Origin: Gluconobacter sp. Gdi
Lineage (GTDB): Bacteria > Pseudomonadota > Alphaproteobacteria > Acetobacterales > Acetobacteraceae
Length of the DNA stretch: 64,000 nucleotides
Direction of reading: 5' to 3'
Assembly: GCF_014132155.1 (NCBI RefSeq)
Contig: NZ_BLJQ01000002.1
Coordinates: 124,001-188,000 of the forward strand
Shown: in pieces, positions 7,519 to 57,154 of the stretch
Position numbering within the stretch: position 1 is the first letter of the stretch
Layout: each line of letters begins with the position of its first letter
Translations under genes and position numbers: made by a program
The notes under the pieces: generated by a model
Databases searched by the model: none
Told to the model about the DNA's origin: nothing
Seen by the model: only the letters and a program-made list of their open reading frames with translations

Positions 7519-7609
7519 GCCAACACTCTAACCTGAGAGCAGAGTCGAACGAAGAGTGTTTCAGAAGGAGGCCTTGACGAGGCGAGACGACCCACCCTAT
7601 GCCGGATTT

Positions 7610-9013
7610 ATGGATAGTTGGACGGCCTACGGTACTGCCCCTCGTGAAGTGATTGCTGGAGGAGGACAACGACTTTCTCCAAAGCATAAATTTTCCTTGG
7701 TAACTACAGTCCGTTGGGAAACACCGTATATTTTGGAATGGCTTACCTATCATTTTTCGATAGGGTTTGATCATGTCTATATATATTGCAATGATGATGA
7801 TCCGGCCGAACTTTACAATGAAATTCTTCCTTTAACTGTTGGACAAAATCCTAAAGTGACATTCGTTCACTATGGGATTGTCGGTGCCCAGTTTCAGATG
7901 TTCTTTCATTATTTACGCCACTACTCGACTGAAACCGAGTGGCATATGTTTTTGGATGTCGATGAATTTCTTTGCCTAAAAGATTGCGATGATATCGGGA
8001 AATTTCTTGAAAAATTTCCTCCGCTTGATGCTCTTTACTTTAATTGGTCATTTTTTGGTCATAGTGGGTATAAAACCAGACCTAAAGGTGCTGTGCTAAC
8101 CAATTATATACGTCGCGAAGATGGAGCAACGCCTTTTACAAAAATTCTTGTACGTTCAGCGATGGTTCCGTACGAGGCTATATTTGAGAACCCGCATGAA
8201 GCTATTCATCATAACCTTCTTACTGTAGCGCCAGATCTCAGGACAATTAATGTTCTGGGAGATTCCATGAATGGGTACTATGACAATTTTCCTGAAAAAG
8301 CCTGGGCATATCTGAAGGAGAACCAGCGTAACCGCGCCATCGTGGATGTGGCCTTTATCGCTCATTACAATATCAAGTCTGAACAGGATTTTGAGATCCG
8401 GGCGAAGCGGAGCGTTGTCGGAAATTTCATTGCTCAAAAAACCTGGCAGAGTATGACGCAGGCAGAACGGGCAGTTTTTTTCTCCATGACGAATGCCGTT
8501 CAGGACACCTATCTAGCTGATTACTGGAAGAAATTGTCCGATGCTCGGCTAACCTGCGTTTTCCCAATTTCTACTTGGCCGCTGCTGTCAGAAGGTTGTT
8601 CCGCAACACAATCTTCAACGTTTTCGGAAATTTCTTCAGAGGATGACGCGGAAGGTCCTCTCTCGGGACAAATTGGAAATTTTCCAGCTCACCATACTGC
8701 TGAAGAGAAGAATCCCTGGTGGCAGGTCGATCTTCAGGAAAAAGCCTGTGTTCATGAAGTAAGGCTGTTTAACCGACTTGATTCCGCATTGGAACGCGCA
8801 GCTAATCTGACGATTTCCGTCTCAACTGATGGAGAATCCTGGACTGAAGTGCATCGCAAAGAAGATGGACAGATTTTCGGTGGTGCCGACGGCACACCCT
8901 ATATCTGGACAACCCCGGAAGGGGTTAAGGCAAGGTTTGTAAGGATTACAGTTCTTGGCGAAAAGACATACCTGCATTTCAGCCAGGTCCAGGTTTATGG
9001 GAACGTTGACTGA
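7610..9013 (+). CDS. Glycosyltransferase (Glyco_tranf_2_4 type) with C-terminal discoidin domain
   Basis: A two-part protein. Residues about 25-250 match the family-2-like glycosyltransferase fold of the DUF23/GT92 kind: FSLVTTVRWETPYILEWLTYH, a VYIYCNDDDP strand, then MFLDVDEFLCL with a DxD-like DVDEF metal/sugar-nucleotide motif. The last 140 residues look like an F5/8 type C (discoidin/CBM32) domain: PWWQVDLQEKACVHEVRLFNR, an SVSTDGESW strand and the closing QVQVYG strand. No signal peptide or membrane segment is visible, so a cytoplasmic or periphery role is likely. The ATG at 7610 lacks a ribosome-binding site; an in-frame GTG at 7556 would add 18 residues. The same PWWQ(V/I) domain recurs in the genes at 47.6 and 49.6 kb. 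Confidence 0.75.
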   Translation: MDSWTAYGTAPREVIAGGGQRLSPKHKFSLVTTVRWETPYILEWLTYHFSIGFDHVYIYCNDDDPAELYNEILPLTVGQNPKVTFVHYGIVGAQFQMFFHYLRHYSTETEWHMFLDVDEFLCLKDCDDIGKFLEKFPPLDALYFNWSFFGHSGYKTRPKGAVLTNYIRREDGATPFTKILVRSAMVPYEAIFENPHEAIHHNLLTVAPDLRTINVLGDSMNGYYDNFPEKAWAYLKENQRNRAIVDVAFIAHYNIKSEQDFEIRAKRSVVGNFIAQKTWQSMTQAERAVFFSMTNAVQDTYLADYWKKLSDARLTCVFPISTWPLLSEGCSATQSSTFSEISSEDDAEGPLSGQIGNFPAHHTAEEKNPWWQVDLQEKACVHEVRLFNRLDSALERAANLTISVSTDGESWTEVHRKEDGQIFGGADGTPYIWTTPEGVKARFVRITVLGEKTYLHFSQVQVYGNVD

Positions 9014-12412: not shown

Positions 12413-13159
12413 TTACGGCCGTAACGCTTCGTCCTGTTGGTACAGCCTGCGGATTCTGCGTTCCTGAAGTGCCGTGACTTCGATTGCGTGCGGGTTCTGG
12501 TTTAAGTGAGGGATGATGTGTCCCTTCATGGCTGGAACAAGCTCCGGAAGCTGCGCAATTTGTTTCATAGGAAACAGGCGATCTACTTCCAGCTTTCCGT
12601 CTTTTCCGCAAATGTACCAAGCCTGCGGGCGGAAAACATGATCCACATCATATGGGGATGACTGGCTTTCTACATGTGTGATGGCATCATCCAGCGTATC
12701 GAAAGAGCGGTAAAGTGCATTGACAGAAGGGTGAATCCTGACCGTTGAAGTGCCGCCTTTTCTTGCAAAGGCCCACGCGGAAACAAATCGTTCTACCGGG
12801 TCGCGCCAGATGGCAAAGCTCGGTAGTTCTCTGGAGAGTTCCGGCGTAACATGACGATAGTACCGGAACGTCTGATGCATCATGGAACAGCCGTAAAGCT
12901 GGTTGCAGATGGATGTGCCCCCGTTCTTGGGAACATGAATAAACAGTGCGCCAGCACTTCGAATACATTCCAAGCGTTTCAGGCGCTTTTTGCCCAAGGG
13001 CAGGCGAAGATGCAGTTCTGCAGCCCGTTCGTGAATATCATTGAATTGCTGAACGCGGAAAAGTCGGCAGAGAAGGGATTGTGGAACGCCGTCTGGTACA
13101 GGCCTGAGTACCGACGATTCAGGAATTTTTTCCTGAACCAAGGTCGAGTATGACGGCAT
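12413..13159 (-). CDS. Sulfotransferase family protein
   Basis: 248 residues, soluble. The PAPS 5'-phosphate loop is visible as LFIHVPKNGGTSI (about residues 51-63), and the 3'-phosphate-binding motif as WRDPVERFVSAWAF (about 118-131). Both are diagnostic of the Sulfotransfer_2-type (carbohydrate-like) sulfotransferases. The acceptor is unknown; small molecules and surface glycans are both possible. No PAPS-synthesis gene is in the window. It lies between the TonB receptor and the SBF transporter, with no tight operon structure on either side. Confidence 0.8.
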   Translation of the reverse strand: MPSYSTLVQEKIPESSVLRPVPDGVPQSLLCRLFRVQQFNDIHERAAELHLRLPLGKKRLKRLECIRSAGALFIHVPKNGGTSICNQLYGCSMMHQTFRYYRHVTPELSRELPSFAIWRDPVERFVSAWAFARKGGTSTVRIHPSVNALYRSFDTLDDAITHVESQSSPYDVDHVFRPQAWYICGKDGKLEVDRLFPMKQIAQLPELVPAMKGHIIPHLNQNPHAIEVTALQERRIRRLYQQDEALRP

Positions 13160-38337: not shown

Positions 38338-39354
38338 TTAACCCAAGGTAAAGTCCGCCAGTTCATCTGCAAGTTTCTCGGGGTCAGGAATCCGGTAGTT
38401 CATATGAAAGCCACTTCCTGCGCCAACTGGCTCCAGGCCGGCACTGTCGTACAGATAGCGGGCGTGATTGTTGTTCGCCTTATCGACCAGGCACTGGTTG
38501 ACCCACATATCCGGACCATGTGCCAGTGTGACAACCCTTCGTTGAGGGAAGAAGAGGCTCGTATGCAGATAGGCGTCATTATACCCGATCACGAGGGGAT
38601 TTGACGCCCAGAGCTTGAGCTGATCCCGGAAAGTCATTTCACTTGGATAAACGGTTCCAATTCCCTTCGCTCTCAACGCGGACGTCAAAAGGCTTTCATT
38701 TTCCACCCTGACATTGCCCTCGGGCAGCTTCTCTTGCGAGAGAAAGAGCACGCGCCCCGGGTGATTCTGTTCGCCTTCGGGCAAAATTTTTCGCCCAATG
38801 CTGTGCGCCAGATCTGCAAAGACATCATAAATGAAGGAAAGCTCTTCAAATGCCGCCGCTGCAACTGTGATCCTTGGAAAGCGGACTGGGGATAAAACCT
38901 GCAGGAAATGATCTGCCGTCAGATCAAGGGCCGTCGTGATCGTCCTAAAGTAGCTCTGCGCCATCAACTGAGCCACAGATTGCGGACTGCTAAACACCAG
39001 CTTCAGGCGTGATCGTGCGTAAGGAGGAAGACCCCACAGGCGAGAGAAGACGTTGGCGAAGAAATAAGGATATGACGGATTCAGGTTTCCAAGGAAAAAA
39101 TAATCAAACTCATCACTCAGAACCGGGCATGCCGGAATATCCGCACAATCTCTGGAACAGAGTGGTGTGTGAAGCGCACCTGCGCCGGTATAGAGCATTC
39201 CCTCAGGAACACTTCGGCCCGAGGGTTCGAAAAGTCCCCACTGCGGGGCAGTTCCAGGCGGGATAAAGACAGCATTTCTGACGTCCCGCTGGTTTGGGAG
39301 GTCCTGAATCAGAAGTCTCCGACCAACGAAACCCGTACAGTCTTTCAGGGCCAT
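38338..39354 (-). CDS. Glycosyltransferase family 61-like protein
   Basis: 338 residues, soluble. The DUF563/GT61 pattern is present: FDYFFLGNLNPSYPYFFANV and RLWGLPPYA (the region of the usual HWL..LPRL), then VLFLSQEKLPEGNVRVENES (counterpart of YISR...R.I.NE) and MTFRDQLKLWASNPLVIGYNDAYLHTSLFF. In the last motif the usual G.HGA.L is changed to GYNDAYL. GT61 members add sugars such as xylose or GlcNAc to surface polymers. The ATG at 39354 was kept; there is no convincing ribosome-binding site. It diverges from prs. Confidence 0.7.
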   Translation of the reverse strand: MALKDCTGFVGRRLLIQDLPNQRDVRNAVFIPPGTAPQWGLFEPSGRSVPEGMLYTGAGALHTPLCSRDCADIPACPVLSDEFDYFFLGNLNPSYPYFFANVFSRLWGLPPYARSRLKLVFSSPQSVAQLMAQSYFRTITTALDLTADHFLQVLSPVRFPRITVAAAAFEELSFIYDVFADLAHSIGRKILPEGEQNHPGRVLFLSQEKLPEGNVRVENESLLTSALRAKGIGTVYPSEMTFRDQLKLWASNPLVIGYNDAYLHTSLFFPQRRVVTLAHGPDMWVNQCLVDKANNNHARYLYDSAGLEPVGAGSGFHMNYRIPDPEKLADELADFTLG

Positions 39355-44652: not shown

Positions 44653-47466
44653 ATGACGAAAAAAAATCTCTTAATAATTTCATCATTATTAATTCCTCTG
44701 CATTCTTTTGCTGCGTCTCCTGCGGCTTACAAAGGAACTGATGGCAGCTACCAGCCGCTTAAAGTGGTGTCAGCCGTTGGAAACAACGAGAAACCTGTCG
44801 TTCCGGCATATAAAGGAACAGATAATCAATGGCATGCCACAACAGTGGTCATGATGACATGCGGGTTGGATGATGCAGGTCATCCTGTTCCGTGCCAGGC
44901 TCCTACGGGCGTAGAATCCAATGCCGTGGTACTGGACAGTTCAGGGTACATCACGGCACCGGTCAGTGGTTCTATCGACAAGGGTACTGTCGGAGGCACA
45001 CAGCTTTCAGGTCTTCTGAATACGCTTTCCACAACAATGGATGCCTTTCAGGCGAGCAACCAGAAAGACGTTCCTAACGGGGTGGTCGGGCGCGACGCCG
45101 TTGGGAATATTCTTTTTGCACAGCAGCAAAATAATAGCGGACAGACGGAGGCAATTCACTTCCACCCGGGTAATCCCTATATCGCAAATAATGATGTCTT
45201 TATCTGGTGTGACACTGCCACTGGCAGCGACGGCCAGGGGCATTGTCATTTCGATAATTTATCATATGGAAATACCTGGGAGTTTAATAACAGAATTTCC
45301 ACCGGGACGGGAATTTTTGGTGCAGACGTCACGGTTAATGGGCAAAGCGTTGCTGACGCACTTGCAAAGCTGGATCGAACTCTGGAAGTTGGATACGAAG
45401 GACAGTCTGTTTATCAGAGTGCGACTACTACTCCTTTTATTACCATGTCCCGCAATCACTGGGATGCAGTAAACCAAAACCCTAATACACTGATGTTGGG
45501 TGGATCTACGGCAAATTCTCTTGTGCATCTGAAAGCCTCGTGTGCAAACACCAGTGGTGGAGATGAAGGCGGGTCCTGCTATCAGTTCACGGATATGGGG
45601 GGGCCAGAAATCAATAACCGTTCCGGCGCGGGTATTACGGACGGAATTAATATTGATGCCCGGTCCAGCGATGTTTCCCCACTGGATGCTTTGGGAGGAA
45701 ATACTCTGGCTACAGAAAGTGACGGATCCTATCGTGTTGTAGGAACCTCATACAGCATCGGGACAGATGCTGCTGCCGGGGCCTCAAGCTTTACGCTGGT
45801 CGGTGCTCTAGGGTGTGGAGTTCAGGCGGCAAACAGTTTGGCAGGCTGCCAGATTTCAGGCCTCTCGCTGGCAGGAGCGTCCGGCACTGTGTCTTCTGAA
45901 ACTGCAAAAATCACGCAGGCGGCTTATAACCCTTCGACCAACCTTACAACAGTCACTCTGCCATCCGGGTACACGTTGGCCTCCGCAGTGGCAGCCAGCA
46001 CAGGTGTAACGGTCCAGTATCTGGCATCTGACGGAATTGCTCATGCCATAAGGTTCCTTGGGGCGAACGAAGTGTCTGTGTATCCAGCGCTTAATACGCT
46101 TGAAATGAATTTGTTTCAAAATCGTATGGCTATTTGGACAAATTACGCAAAAGGAATGAATAGCACGGAAGGGGGGTACAATCCTGATGCTACGAATGTG
46201 GATCTCCCGAACTACTATCTTGCCTATTTTTCTGGTTGGGATGCGGCCAACACTGATAGTGCGCACAGCACATTTTTTGTAGAGAGCGGATACTACCCAG
46301 GGACATCGTCCGCCCAACCGGGATGGTGCACTGTTGGTGCATGGGGTGCCGCTGCTACCGCAGCTCCAGGGCAAAATAGTGGAGACCAGATAGACAATCA
46401 GATTACTTATACCCACCCTGCTACCGGACAGGAAACCCACACTAGCCAGTATCATAATTATAGCCAGCCCACGCTTTTTCTGGGCATGAACAACAAGAAT
46501 TTCAACAACTACAACCTTCAGTATCGCGTCGGAAAAACCGATAGCGTTACCCGTTCCTTCGATAATGAGTGGGACTTCTGGGCGAATCAGGATCATCCTG
46601 GCGAAGTGTCCATGAAGGGGCTCACCCTTGCCTATAATGGCACCTCAGGACCCTTGGCTAATGACAGCTATATGCTGAGGCTGTCAGGGGCTAATACTCT
46701 TGGTATCGGTCTTTGGGTAGGTGGCGTTATTCCAGGAGGCGAAACGATCAAGTCAGATAGTGGGTTCTTTGACGTCCGTAATCAGGCCAACATGTCTGCA
46801 GACGTTAATGCAACACAGCCAATCTCTATGATGGGTAATGGTGTTGTAAATGGGAAATACACAGAACTTTCGTTCTATGGTTCGCAGGATGGATCATCAG
46901 GAAACGGCTCCTTGCATCTTGGTGCGCTGGAAAGCAGTAACCCCAGTCTCCAGTACAACGCTGCTCCTCTTTGCGATGGAACGGCTTATATGCTGGATTC
47001 TGGAATCAGTGCCTCACAATGTGTGCAGGCTGGCCAGATCGTATTTGATCCTAGTGGGTATACCGGCGGTGTCGCTCTTGCTGTTGGCCAGGGCAGCAAT
47101 ACCAAGCTGGGACTTGTGACGGAATCTGATGGTACTGCGCGTGCCCCGGCCGGGCTTAGAGTTGGTGCAGGGAACGCTCCCAGCTTTTCTCAGGTAGACT
47201 CTCAGACGATCAGTCTGACCAATCAGGCAGGAGATACCAATGGGTTTCTGCGCCTTGCTGGTATCGTAACAACCGGGGTCAGCACGTTTGGTGGAGATAC
47301 TGTTACGGCGACCACGGCAACAGCCAAGGCCTTCAGGGAAACGCTTTCAACACCATCATCCTCAACGGCGGATTGCACGCCTGGCGACTTCACAGATGAC
47401 GCAAACTATCATTATGTCTGTGTTGCTTCGAATAGCTGGAAGCGTGTTGAACTTCAGAGCTGGTAA
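44653..47466 (+). CDS. Large secreted protein, phage-tail-fibre-like C-terminus
   Basis: 937 residues, not assigned to a family. A signal peptide (MTKKNLLIISSLLIPLHSFA) is followed by two imperfect repeats, AAYKGTDGSYQPLKVV and AYKGTDNQWHATTVV. The long middle is Gly/Ser/Thr/Asn-rich with few charges and scattered Cys, as in beta-helical adhesins or tail fibres. The last 35 residues (STADCTPGDFTDDANYHYVC, then VASNSWKRVELQSW) resemble the caps of phage tail-fibre or surface proteins. The 5' end and the region before it are AT-rich relative to neighbours, suggesting transfer. No partner secretion gene is adjacent. It could be a surface adhesin or a domesticated fibre; no enzyme motif is seen. 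Confidence 0.6.
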   Translation: MTKKNLLIISSLLIPLHSFAASPAAYKGTDGSYQPLKVVSAVGNNEKPVVPAYKGTDNQWHATTVVMMTCGLDDAGHPVPCQAPTGVESNAVVLDSSGYITAPVSGSIDKGTVGGTQLSGLLNTLSTTMDAFQASNQKDVPNGVVGRDAVGNILFAQQQNNSGQTEAIHFHPGNPYIANNDVFIWCDTATGSDGQGHCHFDNLSYGNTWEFNNRISTGTGIFGADVTVNGQSVADALAKLDRTLEVGYEGQSVYQSATTTPFITMSRNHWDAVNQNPNTLMLGGSTANSLVHLKASCANTSGGDEGGSCYQFTDMGGPEINNRSGAGITDGINIDARSSDVSPLDALGGNTLATESDGSYRVVGTSYSIGTDAAAGASSFTLVGALGCGVQAANSLAGCQISGLSLAGASGTVSSETAKITQAAYNPSTNLTTVTLPSGYTLASAVAASTGVTVQYLASDGIAHAIRFLGANEVSVYPALNTLEMNLFQNRMAIWTNYAKGMNSTEGGYNPDATNVDLPNYYLAYFSGWDAANTDSAHSTFFVESGYYPGTSSAQPGWCTVGAWGAAATAAPGQNSGDQIDNQITYTHPATGQETHTSQYHNYSQPTLFLGMNNKNFNNYNLQYRVGKTDSVTRSFDNEWDFWANQDHPGEVSMKGLTLAYNGTSGPLANDSYMLRLSGANTLGIGLWVGGVIPGGETIKSDSGFFDVRNQANMSADVNATQPISMMGNGVVNGKYTELSFYGSQDGSSGNGSLHLGALESSNPSLQYNAAPLCDGTAYMLDSGISASQCVQAGQIVFDPSGYTGGVALAVGQGSNTKLGLVTESDGTARAPAGLRVGAGNAPSFSQVDSQTISLTNQAGDTNGFLRLAGIVTTGVSTFGGDTVTATTATAKAFRETLSTPSSSTADCTPGDFTDDANYHYVCVASNSWKRVELQSW

Positions 47467-47597: not shown

Positions 47598-49607
47598 TTA
47601 AACGGAAGCAATTCCAAAAGCGAGTTCCATGGAAATGGATGTTCTGAGGAATGCAGGAATTCCGATCCAGATTTCGCCCTTATGGTTCTGCGGACGCAAG
47701 AAATAGAAGTGGCGCATATTGCCTTCATCTTCCTGCATGATCAGCGGCCATGAAAAATTGGACCGCCCATCAGACCGCCTGACATTGTGCATGAGTTGTT
47801 CATGGGCGTGTTCAAAAGGCCGGCGCAACGAAAGACGGAACACCTGAGCTTTTTCTCCTGCCAAGGGAGAAAGAAACAGAATAGCCCGTGTATCTCCCCA
47901 CTCGTGCCGTCCAAAAGCTTCGCCTTCTCGGCTCACCTGAAGAGAAAGGGTCGTATTGGAAGGCTCTTCTGCAACGACGGCTTCATATTGCAGACCATCG
48001 TGCATAGGGTCTGCGGAGAGAACCCACGCAGATGAAATTCCATCCTCCTGCATAGGGGTGCCCGGAAATGCGGGAGATACCTTCGTTTTTTCGCCCTGTG
48101 GAAGCAGAGAAGAGTAAATCCACTGAACGCGGCCCCACCGTGCATCGGAGCGCCAAAGGCGTGTCAAAGGCGTATAAACTTCATTTTTACGAACGGCATC
48201 AGAAAAGCTCTGGGTCAAAACACGGTTCAGAAACCGGTCATGATAAGCTTCCGGGGTCTCTTCATTGGAGAGTGTTTCCAGAAGAGCTCGGCTCCATGCG
48301 TGAGAAAGTGCGGCCGTTGGCGTGGAATCAGGATCCCGACTGAACCACTTGACCTGACACATATGAATAGGAAGTTTTCTCACAAATTCGAGAAGTTCCG
48401 GGAAGGCGACCTCTCGAATTGGCTCCCAAAGCATGTGGCAGATATTTGTAAATCTTCCCGAACCGAAGCTTCGAAAAAAAGTAACTGGCAAGAATTCTTC
48501 TAATGCAAGTGTCTTTTGGGTTGGATTTAAAAAGTATTCATCACATCTTTTTAAGATATTAATGCGTTCGTATAATGTGCCCCATTCTTCACTAGGGGCG
48601 AAAAGACCTTCAATCTGGTTGATGGACATGAAGAGAACATCCGCTTCCTTAATCAGATATTCTCTAAAATTTTCGGCTTCCTGAAGGTTGTCCCATACCC
48701 AGGCTTCTCCACGGGGAACGTCGTCTAGGGGAACGTCTATTAAATAGTGACGCGTCATGCCGACGGGCGCCTCGTCTTTTAATTCCAGACGTCGGACAGC
48801 TGCCGTGAAATCGAACGGGCGTACAAATAACCCGTTTGACGCGCAGGTGCAGAAATAATCAATTTTCCCCAGCGTGCGTAGTGCTTCGCCATAAGATTCC
48901 ATATGGCCCAGCAAGAGGGTGCCACCCCATTTCTTGCGTTCAATGACACCATTAAAAACGTGGACACGTGGATTTGGTGTTAGAAGGTCAGTTGGTATCT
49001 GGCGTGATTTTGGAAAATTGATAAATATATGACAATTTTCAAAAGTAAAATTCAGAAAATTATCGATATAAACCGGTAGGAATCTGTCTTCTTCGTTGTA
49101 GTTGGTCGCGAATACTACAACCCCTTCAGGAGAAGATGAAAGCGTTTCAGGTACGTTGGTAGACAGGGTTGCTCGACATGGCTCCCCATAAACGCGGACA
49201 CTTTTCAGATGGAGATGGTCCCAGTTATCCAGTCGAACTCTTACGAAGCGTCCGATAACGGGCTCTGGAAACACGACCTTGTAAGCAGTGTCGTCGTTGT
49301 CACCGAAAACGCTGTGATCCGTTTTCGAAAAGACGTCTTTCCAGGTCTGGCCGTCTTGTGAGACCAGAATTGAAAACATACGGGCCCGGACCGGCCAGAA
49401 AGATGAATTGTACAACACTACATCTGAAATGACGCAGGGTTCTTCGAGATCGACCTGCCACCAGGGAAACCACTCTGCAGCCGTTTGGAAATGAGCATCA
49501 GAGCGATCTGGCCGATTTGCATTGGCAGCATCAACGGTCAGTGGCAGCAGAATATCTGGATGCTTGGAACTCTGGGTAGCTGGTTTGCCGAGCGCGAGGT
49601 CAATCAT
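47598..49607 (-). CDS. Discoidin-domain protein with glycosyltransferase-like core (copy 1)
   Basis: 669 residues, no signal peptide. The first 130 residues are an F5/8 type C (discoidin/CBM32) domain: DLALGKPATQSSKHP, FPWWQVDLEEPCVISDVVLY, an ILVSQDGQTWKDVF strand, GRFVRVRLDNWDHLHLKSVR and the closing VYG. Residues about 145-430 match no family I can name with confidence, but FATNYNEEDRFLPVYIDNFL and ASNGLFVRPFD recall GT14/core-2 or other inverting glycosyltransferase folds. The last 150 residues are beta-rich and lack Cys. A paralogue starts 14 bases upstream on the same strand, sharing PRVHVFNG, KWG.TLLLGH and QIEGLFA. Probable joint operon. The substrate is unknown. Confidence 0.65.
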   Translation of the reverse strand: MIDLALGKPATQSSKHPDILLPLTVDAANANRPDRSDAHFQTAAEWFPWWQVDLEEPCVISDVVLYNSSFWPVRARMFSILVSQDGQTWKDVFSKTDHSVFGDNDDTAYKVVFPEPVIGRFVRVRLDNWDHLHLKSVRVYGEPCRATLSTNVPETLSSSPEGVVVFATNYNEEDRFLPVYIDNFLNFTFENCHIFINFPKSRQIPTDLLTPNPRVHVFNGVIERKKWGGTLLLGHMESYGEALRTLGKIDYFCTCASNGLFVRPFDFTAAVRRLELKDEAPVGMTRHYLIDVPLDDVPRGEAWVWDNLQEAENFREYLIKEADVLFMSINQIEGLFAPSEEWGTLYERINILKRCDEYFLNPTQKTLALEEFLPVTFFRSFGSGRFTNICHMLWEPIREVAFPELLEFVRKLPIHMCQVKWFSRDPDSTPTAALSHAWSRALLETLSNEETPEAYHDRFLNRVLTQSFSDAVRKNEVYTPLTRLWRSDARWGRVQWIYSSLLPQGEKTKVSPAFPGTPMQEDGISSAWVLSADPMHDGLQYEAVVAEEPSNTTLSLQVSREGEAFGRHEWGDTRAILFLSPLAGEKAQVFRLSLRRPFEHAHEQLMHNVRRSDGRSNFSWPLIMQEDEGNMRHFYFLRPQNHKGEIWIGIPAFLRTSISMELAFGIASV

Positions 49608-49621
49608 ATCAGTGTCAGATC

Positions 49622-51583
49622 TCAGACGGATAAGCTGCGGTTGGTGCGATAGTCCGGGCCTACTGAGAGGCCGACTTCTACTGTGGCGTTGCAGTGAATA
49701 GGAAGACCAAGCCAGACCTGCCCCTCTGCTCCGCGCGCTTTGCGCACAAAATAACGTTTTTCAACATCATCAAAATGCTCAATACGATCGGCGTAATCGA
49801 CCGTGTAACCGTGTTCATCGTGAAAAACGGTTCGAGCCAGCGCATCATGTGGAAAACATTTCCCACGAGGGATGGAGAGACAAAAGACGGTGTCTCCCTG
49901 CAGGCCGGAAAGATAGAGATAGCCTTGCAGATGCACCCCTGAAACGGGCGCGCCGTCTTCTGTCAACGCGCTGCAGGATAGCCGTAAAATGGTTTCGGCC
50001 TCTGCAGTTTCCCGTACATTCAAGGCCACAGAGATACGTTGGTTTGTGGCTTCCATGAACAGATATGCTGGAGCCACCCGGGAAGGGGACCGCTCAGGGA
50101 TATCCAATTCAATATGCTGGCGGTTGCATATCAGATCCCTGACGGACCAGTTAAAGCCCTTTTTCCCTTGTGCATCGGTCGGCCACCAACGGTTTGTCAG
50201 TGGGCCGAAATGTTCTGCTTCATACGCTTTTGCAAGCAGGGTTTTGGCAAGGGTAACTTTCTGGAACTGTTCGATATCACTGTGTTGGCTTTGACCCATT
50301 TCCAGAAGGCTGCGGCCCCAAGGTGTTGTCACCGCAACAGTGGACTGGGCAATCCGGGAGCGGTCAAACCACTTCAGTGCACAGAAATGATCCGGCATAG
50401 TGGGGACCATTTCCAGAAGGTCTGAAACCGTTGTCTGGCGGGTGCCTGACCAGAGAACACGACAGATATGCGTGTATTGGCCCGTTCCAAATCGATCGAA
50501 AATGGACGTTGGAAGCACTTCCTCGATAGCCATATAGTTTTCGAAGGAAATGAAGTCTTCCAGCCCTTCAATCAGGCTTTTGCGTGCATGGAGCTGGTCC
50601 CAGTCCTGCCTGCGCGCGAAAAGACCTTCGATCTGCGTCGCAGAGACCTTTTCTACGGCCAGTTTCTCCCGGAGATAATTTCCCAAACCGGTAGAGTTGC
50701 GAAAATGATGCCACATCCATGTCCCATGGTATGTCGGCTCCAGCACATCTACATCGAGATCTCTCTCATAGGCCCGCTCGCAGGCGACAGGAACACGACA
50801 GGCCAGCGGAAGCTGCTCGATTGCGGCGGCAACGTCCATTTTTCGGACCATGAGCCCATTGGAGGCCATGGTGGCGAAATAATCAAAATTGGGAAAAGCG
50901 GTTTGTGCTTCTTCAAAGGCTTCCAGATGCCCCAGAAGAAGCGTGTGCCCCCATTTCTCACGACGGATTTTCCCGTTGAAAACATGTACACGGGGGCTGA
51001 TCGTCTTGATGTGGGGAGGAATTGCACGTTCAGAAGGAAAATTTAGCGCTACACAGACATTCTCAGGGGTGTAGGCCAGAAAATTGTCAATGTATTGTTC
51101 AAGGAACTCATCGCTTTCGTTGAAAAGCGTTGAAAGTACGACCTGTGAGTTTGCGGCAGTTTTTTTATAGCCGCGTAATGCCTCTTCAACTGTTTGTTCA
51201 TGCCCTGTGAAAGCAGAAGTCTCAAAAACAGCTTTTTTAAAACTCAGGACGCCGAACGCATCATACCGAAGGCGGATGTGGCGAGCAGAAAATACCTGCT
51301 GAAAAGAGACTGAGGTTATTGCGCGGGTGTCGGGTTCGTAGAGAGGTTGTGTCCAGACAGGAAGCCAGTTTTGTCCGTCGTCTGAAATAAGAACCGTCAT
51401 GAGAGGAGGCTGGTCTGTGCCTTCCAGAAAGCCTTCAAGTCTTATGCCTTCGACGCGAACGGGCTCTTTGAGGCTGATCTGCCACCAGGGAAACCATTCG
51501 CGCTGAGAGGAAAATTCTTCGTTTACCTGTGGAGAGGTCTGTGAGCTCGAAAGAATGCTGAATCCGGTAGTGATATTGCCCAC
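49622..51583 (-). CDS. Discoidin-domain protein with glycosyltransferase-like core (copy 2)
   Basis: 653 residues, paralogue of the next gene and first in the pair. The N-terminal discoidin domain is shorter and more diverged: EWFPWWQISLKEPVRVEGIRL, LISDDGQNWLPVW, SARHIRLRYDAFGVLSFKKA. The core is well conserved with copy 1: LSTLFNESDEFLEQYIDNFL, SPRVHVFNGKIRREKWGHTL, LLGHLEAFEEA, MASNGLMVRK, and QIEGLFARRQDWD. The C-terminal region is again beta-rich. No signal peptide or membrane segment. Because both copies keep the core and the discoidin domain, the domain pairing is likely functional. Function inferred only as glycan-related. Confidence 0.65.
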   Translation of the reverse strand: MGNITTGFSILSSSQTSPQVNEEFSSQREWFPWWQISLKEPVRVEGIRLEGFLEGTDQPPLMTVLISDDGQNWLPVWTQPLYEPDTRAITSVSFQQVFSARHIRLRYDAFGVLSFKKAVFETSAFTGHEQTVEEALRGYKKTAANSQVVLSTLFNESDEFLEQYIDNFLAYTPENVCVALNFPSERAIPPHIKTISPRVHVFNGKIRREKWGHTLLLGHLEAFEEAQTAFPNFDYFATMASNGLMVRKMDVAAAIEQLPLACRVPVACERAYERDLDVDVLEPTYHGTWMWHHFRNSTGLGNYLREKLAVEKVSATQIEGLFARRQDWDQLHARKSLIEGLEDFISFENYMAIEEVLPTSIFDRFGTGQYTHICRVLWSGTRQTTVSDLLEMVPTMPDHFCALKWFDRSRIAQSTVAVTTPWGRSLLEMGQSQHSDIEQFQKVTLAKTLLAKAYEAEHFGPLTNRWWPTDAQGKKGFNWSVRDLICNRQHIELDIPERSPSRVAPAYLFMEATNQRISVALNVRETAEAETILRLSCSALTEDGAPVSGVHLQGYLYLSGLQGDTVFCLSIPRGKCFPHDALARTVFHDEHGYTVDYADRIEHFDDVEKRYFVRKARGAEGQVWLGLPIHCNATVEVGLSVGPDYRTNRSLSV

Positions 51584-51683: not shown

Positions 51684-52796
51684 TCAGGGTGTAGAGACAG
51701 TTTTGATCTGCGTCTCCACATTCACGCTGCCATCAATCGATTTATCAACTGTATTGGGCAGAATGGCTGAAACAACACAGTCTCCGGTCTCTAAAGAGAC
51801 AGGCAATGTCTGTATGCCATTAGCCTGCTTCATTACTGAATCAATCCCGTTACCATCCAGAACAATATCGAGTATTTTCTGCGCTGTGGGCTTTAGCGCA
51901 TGAGAAGGATTGGGTTCAGTGCCATTACCGCTATGGTCATTCCACATGAACTTGTTTTCCGAATGGTGAGGAAAGGCTTGGTTACAGCTGCCCCGGCGGT
52001 AAACAGAGACAATTTCCCGAATGCTCCAGCGACCCGATTTTACAGGGGCTCCGGAAAATCCACTGGATGATGTGGCTGAGACGTTTCCGTAAACATCGAG
52101 GAGGAGCCCGGGGTGTAAGGGGCCCTTTTCTGAAACGGGAAGAACGGTATAGGCGTTGAGAACCGGGCCGCGTGCGGTGCTGGGCGTAACCACGAACTCT
52201 GCATCCAGTCCGTTGACGCTGTAAGACGGCCATTTTGGAGGCTGCGTGTCGTAAAGCAACGAGAGATTGCTGGTCATTGTATAAGGACGATTGGCAAAAT
52301 CTGTTCCGTCAAAACTCATGAACAGGCAGCCGCCGGGTGGTAGGCGCATTGGAAGACCGGCGGGTAGTTTGATGGCCACAGGGATTGTCACGGTCCCTGG
52401 ACCCGACTGTTTGACAATCAGCCCCGCCAGCCCCTGACTGGGGAAGCTGGAGAAAATTTCAGAATAGCTCCCAATCTTTTGGCCAGATAACGGGCATACG
52501 GACCGTGTTGTATACGCCAGCCCAAAGAGCGTTTCGGACCAAACCGGCTTATGTGTTGTCTTGTCCGGGCTCGTGGTTGTGGACAGTGTTCCAATCAGCC
52601 CGCGAAAGTTTGCGGGTGCGGGAAGGTTGGCGGGTAACTGGAACGAAAAAAGATTCTTGACCTGGAATGACGGGGTACTTTTCGTCAGTGTTGCCTTGAG
52701 CGGAAGAATTGATAGTTCTTCAGCATGGCTGGTGGGAAAGCAGGCAAAACTGCTGCCTGCAATCATGACTGCCGCAAAGAGTCTACCTGCCTTCAA
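51684..52796 (-). CDS. Secreted protein of unknown function
   Basis: 370 residues. A signal peptide (MKAGRLFAAVMIAGSSFACFPTSHA) precedes a beta-strand-rich mature chain, with Cys in CPLSGQ, GGCLFM, GSCNQAF and TGDCVVSA that could form disulfides in the periplasm. No catalytic or binding motif is recognised. The Gly/Pro-rich stretch and the final Thr/Val-rich strands suggest a surface or periplasmic scaffold. It is read away from the GH32 gene at 52.9 kb and toward the discoidin pair, with 100 bases between. Function unknown. Confidence 0.6.
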   Translation of the reverse strand: MKAGRLFAAVMIAGSSFACFPTSHAEELSILPLKATLTKSTPSFQVKNLFSFQLPANLPAPANFRGLIGTLSTTTSPDKTTHKPVWSETLFGLAYTTRSVCPLSGQKIGSYSEIFSSFPSQGLAGLIVKQSGPGTVTIPVAIKLPAGLPMRLPPGGCLFMSFDGTDFANRPYTMTSNLSLLYDTQPPKWPSYSVNGLDAEFVVTPSTARGPVLNAYTVLPVSEKGPLHPGLLLDVYGNVSATSSSGFSGAPVKSGRWSIREIVSVYRRGSCNQAFPHHSENKFMWNDHSGNGTEPNPSHALKPTAQKILDIVLDGNGIDSVMKQANGIQTLPVSLETGDCVVSAILPNTVDKSIDGSVNVETQIKTVSTP

Positions 52797-54429: not shown

Positions 54430-54804
54430 ATGAAGCGTCTAGTTGTTGATCTTGATGATACTCTTACGAAAAACAACCCTGACCTCTCTTACAGTGATAA
54501 AGAGCCCAATCTTCCCCTGATCGAGAAGCTTCGGGAGTACAAGTCTGAGGGTTTCGAAATTCTGATCCAGACAGCGCGTAACATGCGCACCTATCAGGGG
54601 GCTGTTGGTAAGATCAACGCCAATACACTGCCTATCATCATCGAATGGCTGAAAAAGCATGACGTACCGTACGATGAGATTTATGTTGGCAAGCCGTGGT
54701 GTGGGACGGAAGGGTTCTATATTGATGACCGTGCCGTGCGCCCGTCCGAATTTCTCTCTTTGTCGCTTGAAGAGATCAATACGCTGATTGAGACGCACAA
54801 ATGA
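54430..54804 (+). CDS. HAD-superfamily phosphatase (capsule-type)
   Basis: 124 residues. The phosphatase nucleophile motif is DLDDT (7-11, D7 and D9), followed by a Thr-containing motif 2 (QTARNM) and the C-terminal acidic motif YIDDRAV. Such small HAD phosphatases with this layout occur in capsule and cell-surface carbohydrate clusters of Campylobacter and others. It overlaps the next gene by four bases (ATGA) and is the first of a three-gene coupled operon. A GGAGG lies upstream of the ATG. Confidence 0.8.
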   Translation: MKRLVVDLDDTLTKNNPDLSYSDKEPNLPLIEKLREYKSEGFEILIQTARNMRTYQGAVGKINANTLPIIIEWLKKHDVPYDEIYVGKPWCGTEGFYIDDRAVRPSEFLSLSLEEINTLIETHK

Positions 54805-56423
54805 GTGCCCCCTCCTCCATTGGTCTGATCACATCAGGCGCCTTCGTCGATCAAGAACTGGTTGCGGAGTTCGGCCTTTTACCCCCTTCATTTCTGCCGC
54901 TGGGCGTAGGCCGTCTGTATGACATGCAGATAGACTGTCTTCGGAAAAACTTCACCGAGACATTCCCTCTGTACATGACGGTTCCCGAGAGTTTTGACGT
55001 TCCGGCCTACGATACTCAGCGTCTGAATGAAAAGGGAGTTACCCTTCTTCCCGTTCCAGATGACATGCAACTCGGCGAAGCGATTGTTTACGCCATCAAT
55101 GTGATCAACGCCTACAATACAGGCGTCCGCATTTTGCACGGTGACACCGTTCTGAGCCAGATCCCAACCCAGCTCGACGTGATTGCCGGTCACGCGGAGG
55201 GGGATGACTATTCGTGGGCTGCGATCAAACATAGCGACAATGTTATCGTCAGTTTGCAAACGTTTGAGGCCACAAGCGAGCAGAATACCGAAAATCCCGT
55301 TGCCTGCGGCTATTTCGCATTCTCCAATGGTGCAGAGCTTGTTCGCGCCATCAGCCAGGTGCGCGGTCGTTTCATTGACGGCATAAACAACTATTTGCAG
55401 CGTCGTCCCATGAAGATGGAGGAAATTAAGGAATGGTATGACTTTGGTCATATCCAGACTTATTTCCGCTCTCGTCGGCTCGTAACGACAGCGCGCGCGT
55501 TCAACTCCCTTCAGATTACCCGCAATACGGTTCGTAAGCTTTCGGCTGACACCTTCAAGATGAAAGCTGAAGCTGAATGGTTTGAGAGTGTTCCACCAAA
55601 GGTACAGCCCTACGCGGCGAGATTGCTGGACAAGGGGGAGCAGGGGCAAAGGGCATTCTATTCAACTGAATACCAGTACGCGCCGAATCTGTCGGAACTC
55701 TATGTTTTCTCTGCAATCGGGCGTGTTTCCTGGAAGAAGATCCTGACCTCCTGCGCAGAATTTCTGGAAATCTGTGCCGCGACACCTGGGGACAAGCCGA
55801 GAGACGATTACTCGCGGCAGCTTATGGGCAGCAAGACGGTCGAACGGCTGGAGCGGTTCGCTAAGGAAACCGGCTTCGATATAGAGCATGAACTGGTTTA
55901 CAAGGGACGGAAGATGCCGTCTCTCTTAGAAATCAGCCGCCAGCTGGAAACGATGGTATCCTTTGATCCTGCAGCTTCATCTACCATGATGCATGGCGAT
56001 TTCTGCTTCAGCAATATCCTTTACAACTCCAGAAATAGTCGTATCTCTGTCATTGATCCCCGTGGGTATGTCTTCAGCGAAAAACGCGAAATCTACGGTG
56101 ATTGCCGATACGATATCGCAAAATATTCTCACTCAGTTGACGGACTGTATGACTTCATTCTTGCCGGTCGGTATGACCTGAAGCAGGATGGACTTTACAA
56201 TTTCGACCTGAATTTCGATACGTCCTCTCATCGTCAGTGGCTGCAAAGCGCGTTCTCTGAAATGAGCATTGCTGGTATTTCTGTTTCCAGCGCAGAAATT
56301 CGTGCAATCACGACGTCCCTGTTCATTTCCATGCTGCCTTTGCATTCCGACAGACCAGATCGACAAAAGGCGTTCATCGCCAATGCCTTGCGTCTGTATT
56401 CGACTCTTGAAGGAAAAATCTGA
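54801..56423 (+). CDS. Nucleotidyltransferase-like / aminoglycoside-phosphotransferase-like fusion
   Basis: 540 residues. The N-terminal half resembles a GT-A/NTP-transferase fold: ITSGAFVDQEL, PSFLPLGVGRLYDMQ and RILHGDTVL, where the HGD resembles the metal-binding strand. The C-terminal half has the kinase-like APH motif: HGDFCFSNILY (398-408) followed by VIDPRG with D419. The K253/K255 region (TFKMKAEAEWFE) may be the ATP-lysine strand. This pairing of a transferase and a small-molecule kinase suggests it activates an alcohol or amino alcohol (choline, ethanolamine, polyol). The stop overlaps the next start. Confidence 0.7.
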   Translation: MSAPSSIGLITSGAFVDQELVAEFGLLPPSFLPLGVGRLYDMQIDCLRKNFTETFPLYMTVPESFDVPAYDTQRLNEKGVTLLPVPDDMQLGEAIVYAINVINAYNTGVRILHGDTVLSQIPTQLDVIAGHAEGDDYSWAAIKHSDNVIVSLQTFEATSEQNTENPVACGYFAFSNGAELVRAISQVRGRFIDGINNYLQRRPMKMEEIKEWYDFGHIQTYFRSRRLVTTARAFNSLQITRNTVRKLSADTFKMKAEAEWFESVPPKVQPYAARLLDKGEQGQRAFYSTEYQYAPNLSELYVFSAIGRVSWKKILTSCAEFLEICAATPGDKPRDDYSRQLMGSKTVERLERFAKETGFDIEHELVYKGRKMPSLLEISRQLETMVSFDPAASSTMMHGDFCFSNILYNSRNSRISVIDPRGYVFSEKREIYGDCRYDIAKYSHSVDGLYDFILAGRYDLKQDGLYNFDLNFDTSSHRQWLQSAFSEMSIAGISVSSAEIRAITTSLFISMLPLHSDRPDRQKAFIANALRLYSTLEGKI

Positions 56424-57154
56424 TGATCGTCATCCCGATGGCTGGTCTATCCAGCCGTTTTACAAAAGCCGGGTATACCAAGCCGAAGTATATGCTGCCT
56501 CTGGCTGGGAAAAGCGTGTTTGCGCATTCCATCGAAAGCTTTTCAGCCTATTTCGAGACGATGCCATTCATCTTCATCGCTCGGACTGTGGCAGATACAG
56601 AAGCTTTCATCAGGGCAGAAACAGCCAAGCTTGGCATCAAGGATGTGCGTATCATCATTCTTGATCATGAAACGGCTGGGCAGGCTGAGACAGTTGAATT
56701 TGGCGTCAGGAAAGCCGGGCTGGATTTGGAAACGCCACTGACAATCTTCAACATTGATACATTTCGCAAGGACTTCCGGTTTCCGGATGCACCATGGTTT
56801 AAGACCTCTGACGGGTATCTGGAAGTTTTCAAAGGCGAAGGGGCCAACTGGTCTTACGTTGGACCTGAAGAAAACAGCAATGAACCCCTGGCAGCCAGAA
56901 CGACCGAAAAGCAGCCCATTTCAGATCTGTGCTGTGATGGGCTTTATCACTTTGCTCGCGCTAGCGATTTTCTGAATGCTCTCGCGCAGGAGCGTCTGAC
57001 GCCTTCCTCTCCGGAGCTCTATGTCGCACCGCTTTATAATCACCTGATCAACGAAGGGCGTAAGATCCACTACGATCTCGTGCCTCAGGACGTGATTACG
57101 TTCTGTGGTGTCCCTGCCGAATACACAGCTCTGCTGGATGCTGTGAAGGACTGA
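56423..57154 (+). CDS. Sugar/alcohol nucleotidyltransferase (NTP_transferase fold)
   Basis: 243 residues. The nucleotidyltransferase start is canonical: MIVIPMAGLSSRFTKAGYTKPKYMLPLAGKSVF carries the G.SSRF loop and the P-K substrate lysine. A later LTIFNIDTFRK supplies the metal-binding Asp. The fold suits CTP/UTP-dependent activation, for example choline-phosphate, sugar or polyol cytidylyltransferases. It overlaps the preceding fusion gene by one base (TGATG). With the HAD phosphatase and kinase it forms one likely pathway. A hairpin (57166-57196) follows. Confidence 0.8.
   Translation: MIVIPMAGLSSRFTKAGYTKPKYMLPLAGKSVFAHSIESFSAYFETMPFIFIARTVADTEAFIRAETAKLGIKDVRIIILDHETAGQAETVEFGVRKAGLDLETPLTIFNIDTFRKDFRFPDAPWFKTSDGYLEVFKGEGANWSYVGPEENSNEPLAARTTEKQPISDLCCDGLYHFARASDFLNALAQERLTPSSPELYVAPLYNHLINEGRKIHYDLVPQDVITFCGVPAEYTALLDAVKD

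Follow-up and report, generated by a model that had tools for sequence, protein, structure and literature searches.

The window analysed here is the whole stretch of 64,000 nucleotides at positions 124001-188000 of contig C2, in a genome of 3.55 Mb. It encodes three proteins, here called P1, P2 and P3, in which a discoidin (F5/8 type C) domain is combined with a core of predicted glycosyltransferase type. The features under discussion are listed by coordinates within the window, with the kind of evidence in brackets where it applies.

7610..9013, + strand: P1, GT2_4/GT92-type glycosyltransferase with C-terminal F-type-lectin-like discoidin domain (Pfam, homologue start)
7712..8005, + strand: GT-A core of P1, PF13704, residues 53-150, with FLDVDEF (DXD) inside (Pfam)
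8585..9010, + strand: discoidin domain of P1, residues 344-485, with H380, R407, D409 and R414 (Pfam, motif)
47598..49607, - strand: P2, N-terminal discoidin domain, predicted GT14-like GT-A core and C-terminal beta-sandwich (Pfam, AlphaFold)
47601..48176, - strand: C-terminal beta-sandwich of P2, residues 478-669, without confident structural match (model, structure search)
48270..49145, - strand: predicted GT14-like GT-A core of P2, residues 155-446, with invariant E370/E371 and K420-W-F-x-R424 (alignment, model)
49170..49607, - strand: discoidin domain of P2, residues 1-146, which retains the EWFPWW patch and has lost the sugar triad (Pfam, structure, motif)
49622..51583, - strand: P3, paralogous to P2 and upstream of it on the same strand at a distance of 14 bp (Pfam, homology)
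51684..52796, - strand: exported-looking protein of 370 aa without family assignment, upstream of P3; beside P3-P2 in four Asaia-genus genomes at 61-64% identity
52911..54380, + strand: GH32 fructan/sucrose hydrolase with export signal-like N-terminus; a neighbour in Asaia-genus and Ameyamaea genomes also
54430..54804, + strand: EcbF/BcbF-type capsule biosynthesis HAD phosphatase (TIGR01689, 195 bits, cut-off 162)
54801..56423, + strand: 540-aa protein with weak kinase-like match, partner of the phosphatase
56423..57154, + strand: nucleotidyltransferase-like protein, third of the capsule trio

PF00754, the Pfam model of the F5/8 type C domain, scored above its gathering cut-off (28.2 bits) in P1 (58.1 bits, E = 1.2e-15, residues 351-471), in the N-terminal part of P2 (56.0 bits, E = 5.7e-15) and in P3 (29.2 bits, E = 1.1e-6). 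Since the F5/8 homology is clear and PF00754 has no further match anywhere in the genome, chance is excluded as an explanation at the level of sequence. The original prediction had placed the domain in all three proteins, C-terminal in P1 and N-terminal in P2 and P3, and had seen no signal peptide; all of this holds, and none of the three has an N-terminal hydrophobic stretch. It had also counted three fusions. The three proteins stand, but P2 (669 aa) and P3 (653 aa) are tandem paralogues, so that two independent fusions are present in the window. Searches of NCBIfam and PHROGs gave no match for any of the three. P1 is co-located with P2/P3, at about 52-53 kb, also in three Asaia-genus genomes (G085, G149 and G228), and in the open-access literature no description was found of such fusions in acetic acid bacteria.

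The open reading frame of P1 begins with a GTG at 7556 (7556-9013, + strand), from which 485 aa are counted. A homologue at locus L080 begins at P1 residue 19, that is at the ATG at 7610, which makes this start, adopted in the original prediction, the likelier one. The core scored 52.4 bits with the GT2_4 model PF13704 (E = 8e-14) and more weakly with the GT92 model PF01697 (24.1 bits, E = 3.2e-5); both scores are above cut-off, and the DXD lies within the core. Full-length P1-like proteins are common across Acetobacteraceae genomes, and BLAST clustering put 39 core segments in the GT2_4/GT92 cluster of P1. Compared with other Glyco_tranf_2_4/GT92 proteins with F5/8 domains, P1 shares the architecture and no difference was found; by its sequence, it is an unremarkable representative of an architecture already known.

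The discoidin domain of P1 carries the complete sugar-binding motif of F-type lectins (PMC5712786), His380 followed by Arg407-x-Asp409-x4-Arg414. The motif was scored as a His, then x24 as published or x26 as between H52 and R79 of AAA, then R-x-D-x4-R/K, and P1 has the spacing of AAA H52/R79/R86. F-type lectins such as AAA and MsaFBP32 (PMC5712786) are secreted, whereas the domain in P1, P2 and P3 sits within a transferase lacking an export signal, and in P2 and P3 it also lacks the motif. The H-R-D-R residues are absent from both, P2 having F-Q-T and N-S-S-F at the motif positions. As the sugar triad is kept in P1 and lost in P2/P3, a single anchoring role shared by all three, as first proposed, is doubtful. 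The ligand of P1 is probably a sugar other than fucose: no GDP-fucose synthase is recognisable in its own genome (best score 47.5 bits against a cut-off of 500), which makes fucose improbable. A gmd-like gene in the same genome scored 413.6 bits, just under the cut-off of 415.

The discoidin domain is a movable part in this family. PF00754 is present in 57 of 200 Acetobacteraceae genomes, so that the module is recurrent, as the original prediction had it, but "Gluconobacter-type" describes it too narrowly. In a sample collected through similarity to P1, P2 and PF00754, 57 discoidin proteins, mostly from Acetobacteraceae, joined the domain to GT2_4/GT92, GT61, GT17, GT11-like and FkbM-methyltransferase cores and to several cores without a family. 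BLAST clustering of the cores gave eight clusters of at least two members plus singletons, and by this measure no fewer than eight unrelated cores bear the same class of domain; the fusion thus recurs in other Acetobacteraceae, where the original prediction would have it sought. In a tree of the discoidin domains all 13 from GT14-like proteins formed one supported group, apart from that of P1, which fits one fusion event for the GT14-like family. The tree is built on few columns and leaves many forks unresolved, and together with the sampling by similarity this makes any count of fusion events provisional. One protein (L018:526-2775) combines GT17, discoidin and FkbM methyltransferase. A further family, core2, has a C-terminal discoidin domain (L081:3887-5251, L021, L027, L028, L103, L111 and L125) and WPYCE and VENDA-type motifs.

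The cores of P2 and P3 are of a different kind. They had no match in Pfam, NCBIfam or PHROG families, and none of the 23 members of their family has a Pfam glycosyltransferase match. The glycosyltransferase region claimed for all three proteins is thus borne out by a family model in P1, whereas in P2 it is supported by the fold and in P3 by homology, with family models giving no confirmation for these two. The AlphaFold model of P2 (17-sequence alignment, pLDDT 80.4, pTM 0.79) shows an F-type-lectin fold in residues 1-146 and a GT-A domain in residues 155-446, as the original prediction would lead one to expect, followed by a beta-rich C-terminal part. The GT-A domain resembles C2GnT-L (3otk and 2gam; Z 18.4 at 3.4-3.6 A over about 250 residues) and, with Z 16.9, xylosyltransferase 1 (6eja) in a match list that consists mostly of discoidin entries and leaves room for other GT-A families; P3 is assigned the same GT14-like fold by homology along the length of P2. 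The discoidin part matched the striped-bass lectin 3cqo with Z 18.5. The C-terminal beta-sandwich, folded alone, reached pLDDT 82; CBM27, CBM4 and CBM29 were considered for it and rejected, with Z of 6-6.8 being under the stated noise level of the tool.

Sequence comparison gave a different picture. PF02485/GT14 was not matched by P2 or P3, hhalign against eight bacterial GT14 proteins returned probabilities of 0.6-0.7%, and profile searches of the PDB with the core yielded chance matches only. The sole local GT14 alignment set KWG..L opposite CGWG..SL and ASN.LFVR opposite SGDCM.IK. Profiles of GT17 (built from three sequences only), GT2_4/92, GT11-like, GT61 and FkbM proteins did no better than GT14 against the P2 core, and the core2 family reached 20% hhalign probability over 86 columns. 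As the hhalign result is not significant, the claim is limited to a GT14-like shape and a probable GT14-like mode of working.

This mode of working is suggested by the conserved residues. In GT14 enzymes, which have no DXD, a Glu serves as base (E320/E529) and the diphosphate is held by basic residues, in C2GnT-L R378/K401 (PMC5992326, PMC7185993, PMC10960159). In the alignment of 23 relatives of the P2/P3 core E370, E371, W394, K420, W421, F422 and R424 are invariant, as are the QIEG and ASN motifs, and no Asp is invariant or near-invariant, so that there is no conserved DXD. E370/E371, K420 and R424 follow the order of the GT14 residues, and on order and spacing of motifs rather than superposed coordinates E370/E371 may correspond to E320 and K420 to K401. 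The core is thus like GT14 in its fold of about 250 residues (Z 16.9-18.4), in having no conserved DXD and in the expected order of Glu and Lys/Arg; unlike C2GnT-L and xylosyltransferase 1 it is bacterial and cytosolic, has no detectable sequence similarity to them, and carries the additional N-terminal discoidin domain and C-terminal beta-sandwich. Going by the model, it is probably both shaped like GT14 and working like GT14, and the P2/P3 cores would form a separate GT14-like family that has not been described previously. This core family, its own discoidin clade and its linkage to capsule genes had all escaped the original prediction.

The P2/P3 core was found in 14 of the 299 Acetobacteraceae genomes sampled (counted from match ranges), and in the phylum sample of 299 genomes it was confined to Acetobacteraceae. 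Carriers are Asaia bogorensis, A. krungthepensis, A. lannensis, Ameyamaea chiangmaiensis, Acidiphilium rubrum and several MAGs. The plasmid collection held one weak match only, covering 24% of P2 with the discoidin domain included. A relative of the P2 core was also seen in a MAG titled Bordetella parapertussis (L091), a label that may be wrong, as the core is otherwise found here only in Acetobacteraceae-type genomes. Three Asaia-genus loci (L076, L077 and L078) hold additional GT14-like proteins, about 510-525 aa long, that lack discoidin.

Of the 14 genomes that carry the core, 12 have the EcbF/BcbF-type phosphatase (TIGR01689), which occurs in 29 of all 299 (Fisher p = 5e-12). Because the genomes are related, the count by genus is the fairer one, and it gives 7 of 7 genera with the core, compared with 19 of 102 (p = 2.7e-6). 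In six of the 12 genomes having both, the two genes are direct neighbours or no more than 3 kb apart. In Ameyamaea (L068/L085) and genus g41 (L069) the neighbours of the core are the phosphatase, the 540-aa protein and the nucleotidyltransferase. Core, EcbF, 540-aa and nucleotidyltransferase genes form a same-strand run in L069 and L072; in L075 the run core-EcbF-540aa extends to the contig end, and in L068 a same-strand capsule gene run has GH32 in between. The cores of L072 and L075 are without discoidin yet lie in the same capsule operon, which indicates that the domain is dispensable for the role of the core. In Asaia-genus genomes the EcbF trio is located elsewhere, away from P3-P2, and in four of them the genes for the 370-aa exported protein and GH32 are kept beside P3-P2.

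From the domain make-up, the predicted fold of P2, its invariant catalytic-type residues, the linkage to capsule genes and the recurring fusion, all computed here, we infer that P1, P2 and P3 are cytosolic lectin-guided transferases decorating a surface polysaccharide, a reading we hold to be rather probable. P2 and P3 would be inverting, metal-independent GT-A glycosyltransferases of GT14-like fold that cooperate with the trio of EcbF phosphatase, kinase-like protein and nucleotidyltransferase and attach side sugars to a capsular-type polysaccharide intermediate. Their N-terminal discoidin domain may keep the acceptor or product glycan close to the active site, and P1 would do a similar job with its C-terminal F-type-lectin domain. 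A precedent is GnT-IVa, whose full activity depends on a beta-sandwich, CBM32-like lectin domain that binds the product glycan; the GalNAc-transferases provide a second one (PMC9296478). GnT-IVa/MGAT4A shares with P1-P3 the union of a glycosyltransferase with a lectin domain of the discoidin/CBM32 class; it differs in being a eukaryotic Golgi enzyme of another family (GT54) with the lectin at the C-terminus, and in that the function of the lectin domain was tested experimentally there, whereas in P1-P3 it is predicted.

The domain could instead be a structural or protein-protein module that recruits the transferase to a biosynthetic complex without binding glycan. Discoidin folds bind lipids and proteins too (factor VIII and neuropilin entries are among the fold matches), the sugar motif is lost in P2/P3, and the core-only relatives keep their capsule linkage. 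Such a role is nevertheless unlikely in view of the complete F-type-lectin motif, kept by P1 with AAA-like spacing and altogether by 26 of the 89 discoidin domains scored (from the loci fetched here, with an allowed spacing range), of fucose-binding lectins and CBM32 as the folds closest to the P2 domain, and of the recognised partner cores, which are nearly all glycan-modifying enzymes. Doubt may also be directed at the core, which instead of a working GT14-like enzyme could be a GT-A protein of some other branch, such as a GT17-like one, or a relative that has lost catalysis. GT17 clusters with GT14 in the published GT-A tree (PMC7185993) and the core has no sequence match to GT14, but the three-sequence GT17 profile was no better than GT14 in hhalign and the invariant charged residues speak against a dead enzyme, so we judge this quite improbable. 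That P2 and P3 glycosylate exported proteins rather than capsule is very unlikely, given a phosphatase linkage far broader than the exported-protein linkage and candidate acceptors with an export signal that P2/P3 lack, even though C2GnT-L and XylT1, the closest folds, act on protein-linked acceptors (PMC5992326), exported Ser/Thr-rich (20%) neighbours lie at 44653-47466 and 51684-52796, and the latter is conserved with P3-P2 in Asaia-genus genomes.

Beyond decoration of a surface polysaccharide by these three proteins, it may tentatively be proposed that Acetobacteraceae possess a toolkit in which a lectin-type domain is placed on many unrelated cytosolic enzymes of glycan synthesis, including an unnamed GT14-fold family that branches the capsule of the EcbF pathway. 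The steering of glycosyltransferases by lectin domains is well studied in animals, and a bacterial lectin-guided branching of capsule would be comparable in principle to animal GnT-IVa and the GalNAc-transferases. With one domain on many transferases, the bacterial family could offer simple cytosolic systems for testing the effect of a lectin on acceptor choice and processivity, and the P2/P3 core would add a GT14-shaped family missed by sequence searches, with a concrete capsule context.

Several other genes of the window deserve mention. The exported-looking protein at 44653-47466 (+ strand) has 937 aa, 20% Ser+Thr and no family match, and its N-terminal part recurs (35% over 124 aa) between two Ameyamaea homologues of P2/P3 (L068 and L085). 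Other glycan genes are a GT61-type protein at 38338-39354 (- strand) and a Sulfotransfer_2-type protein at 12413-13159 (- strand), the neighbourhood of the latter being kept also in genome G218 (L080).
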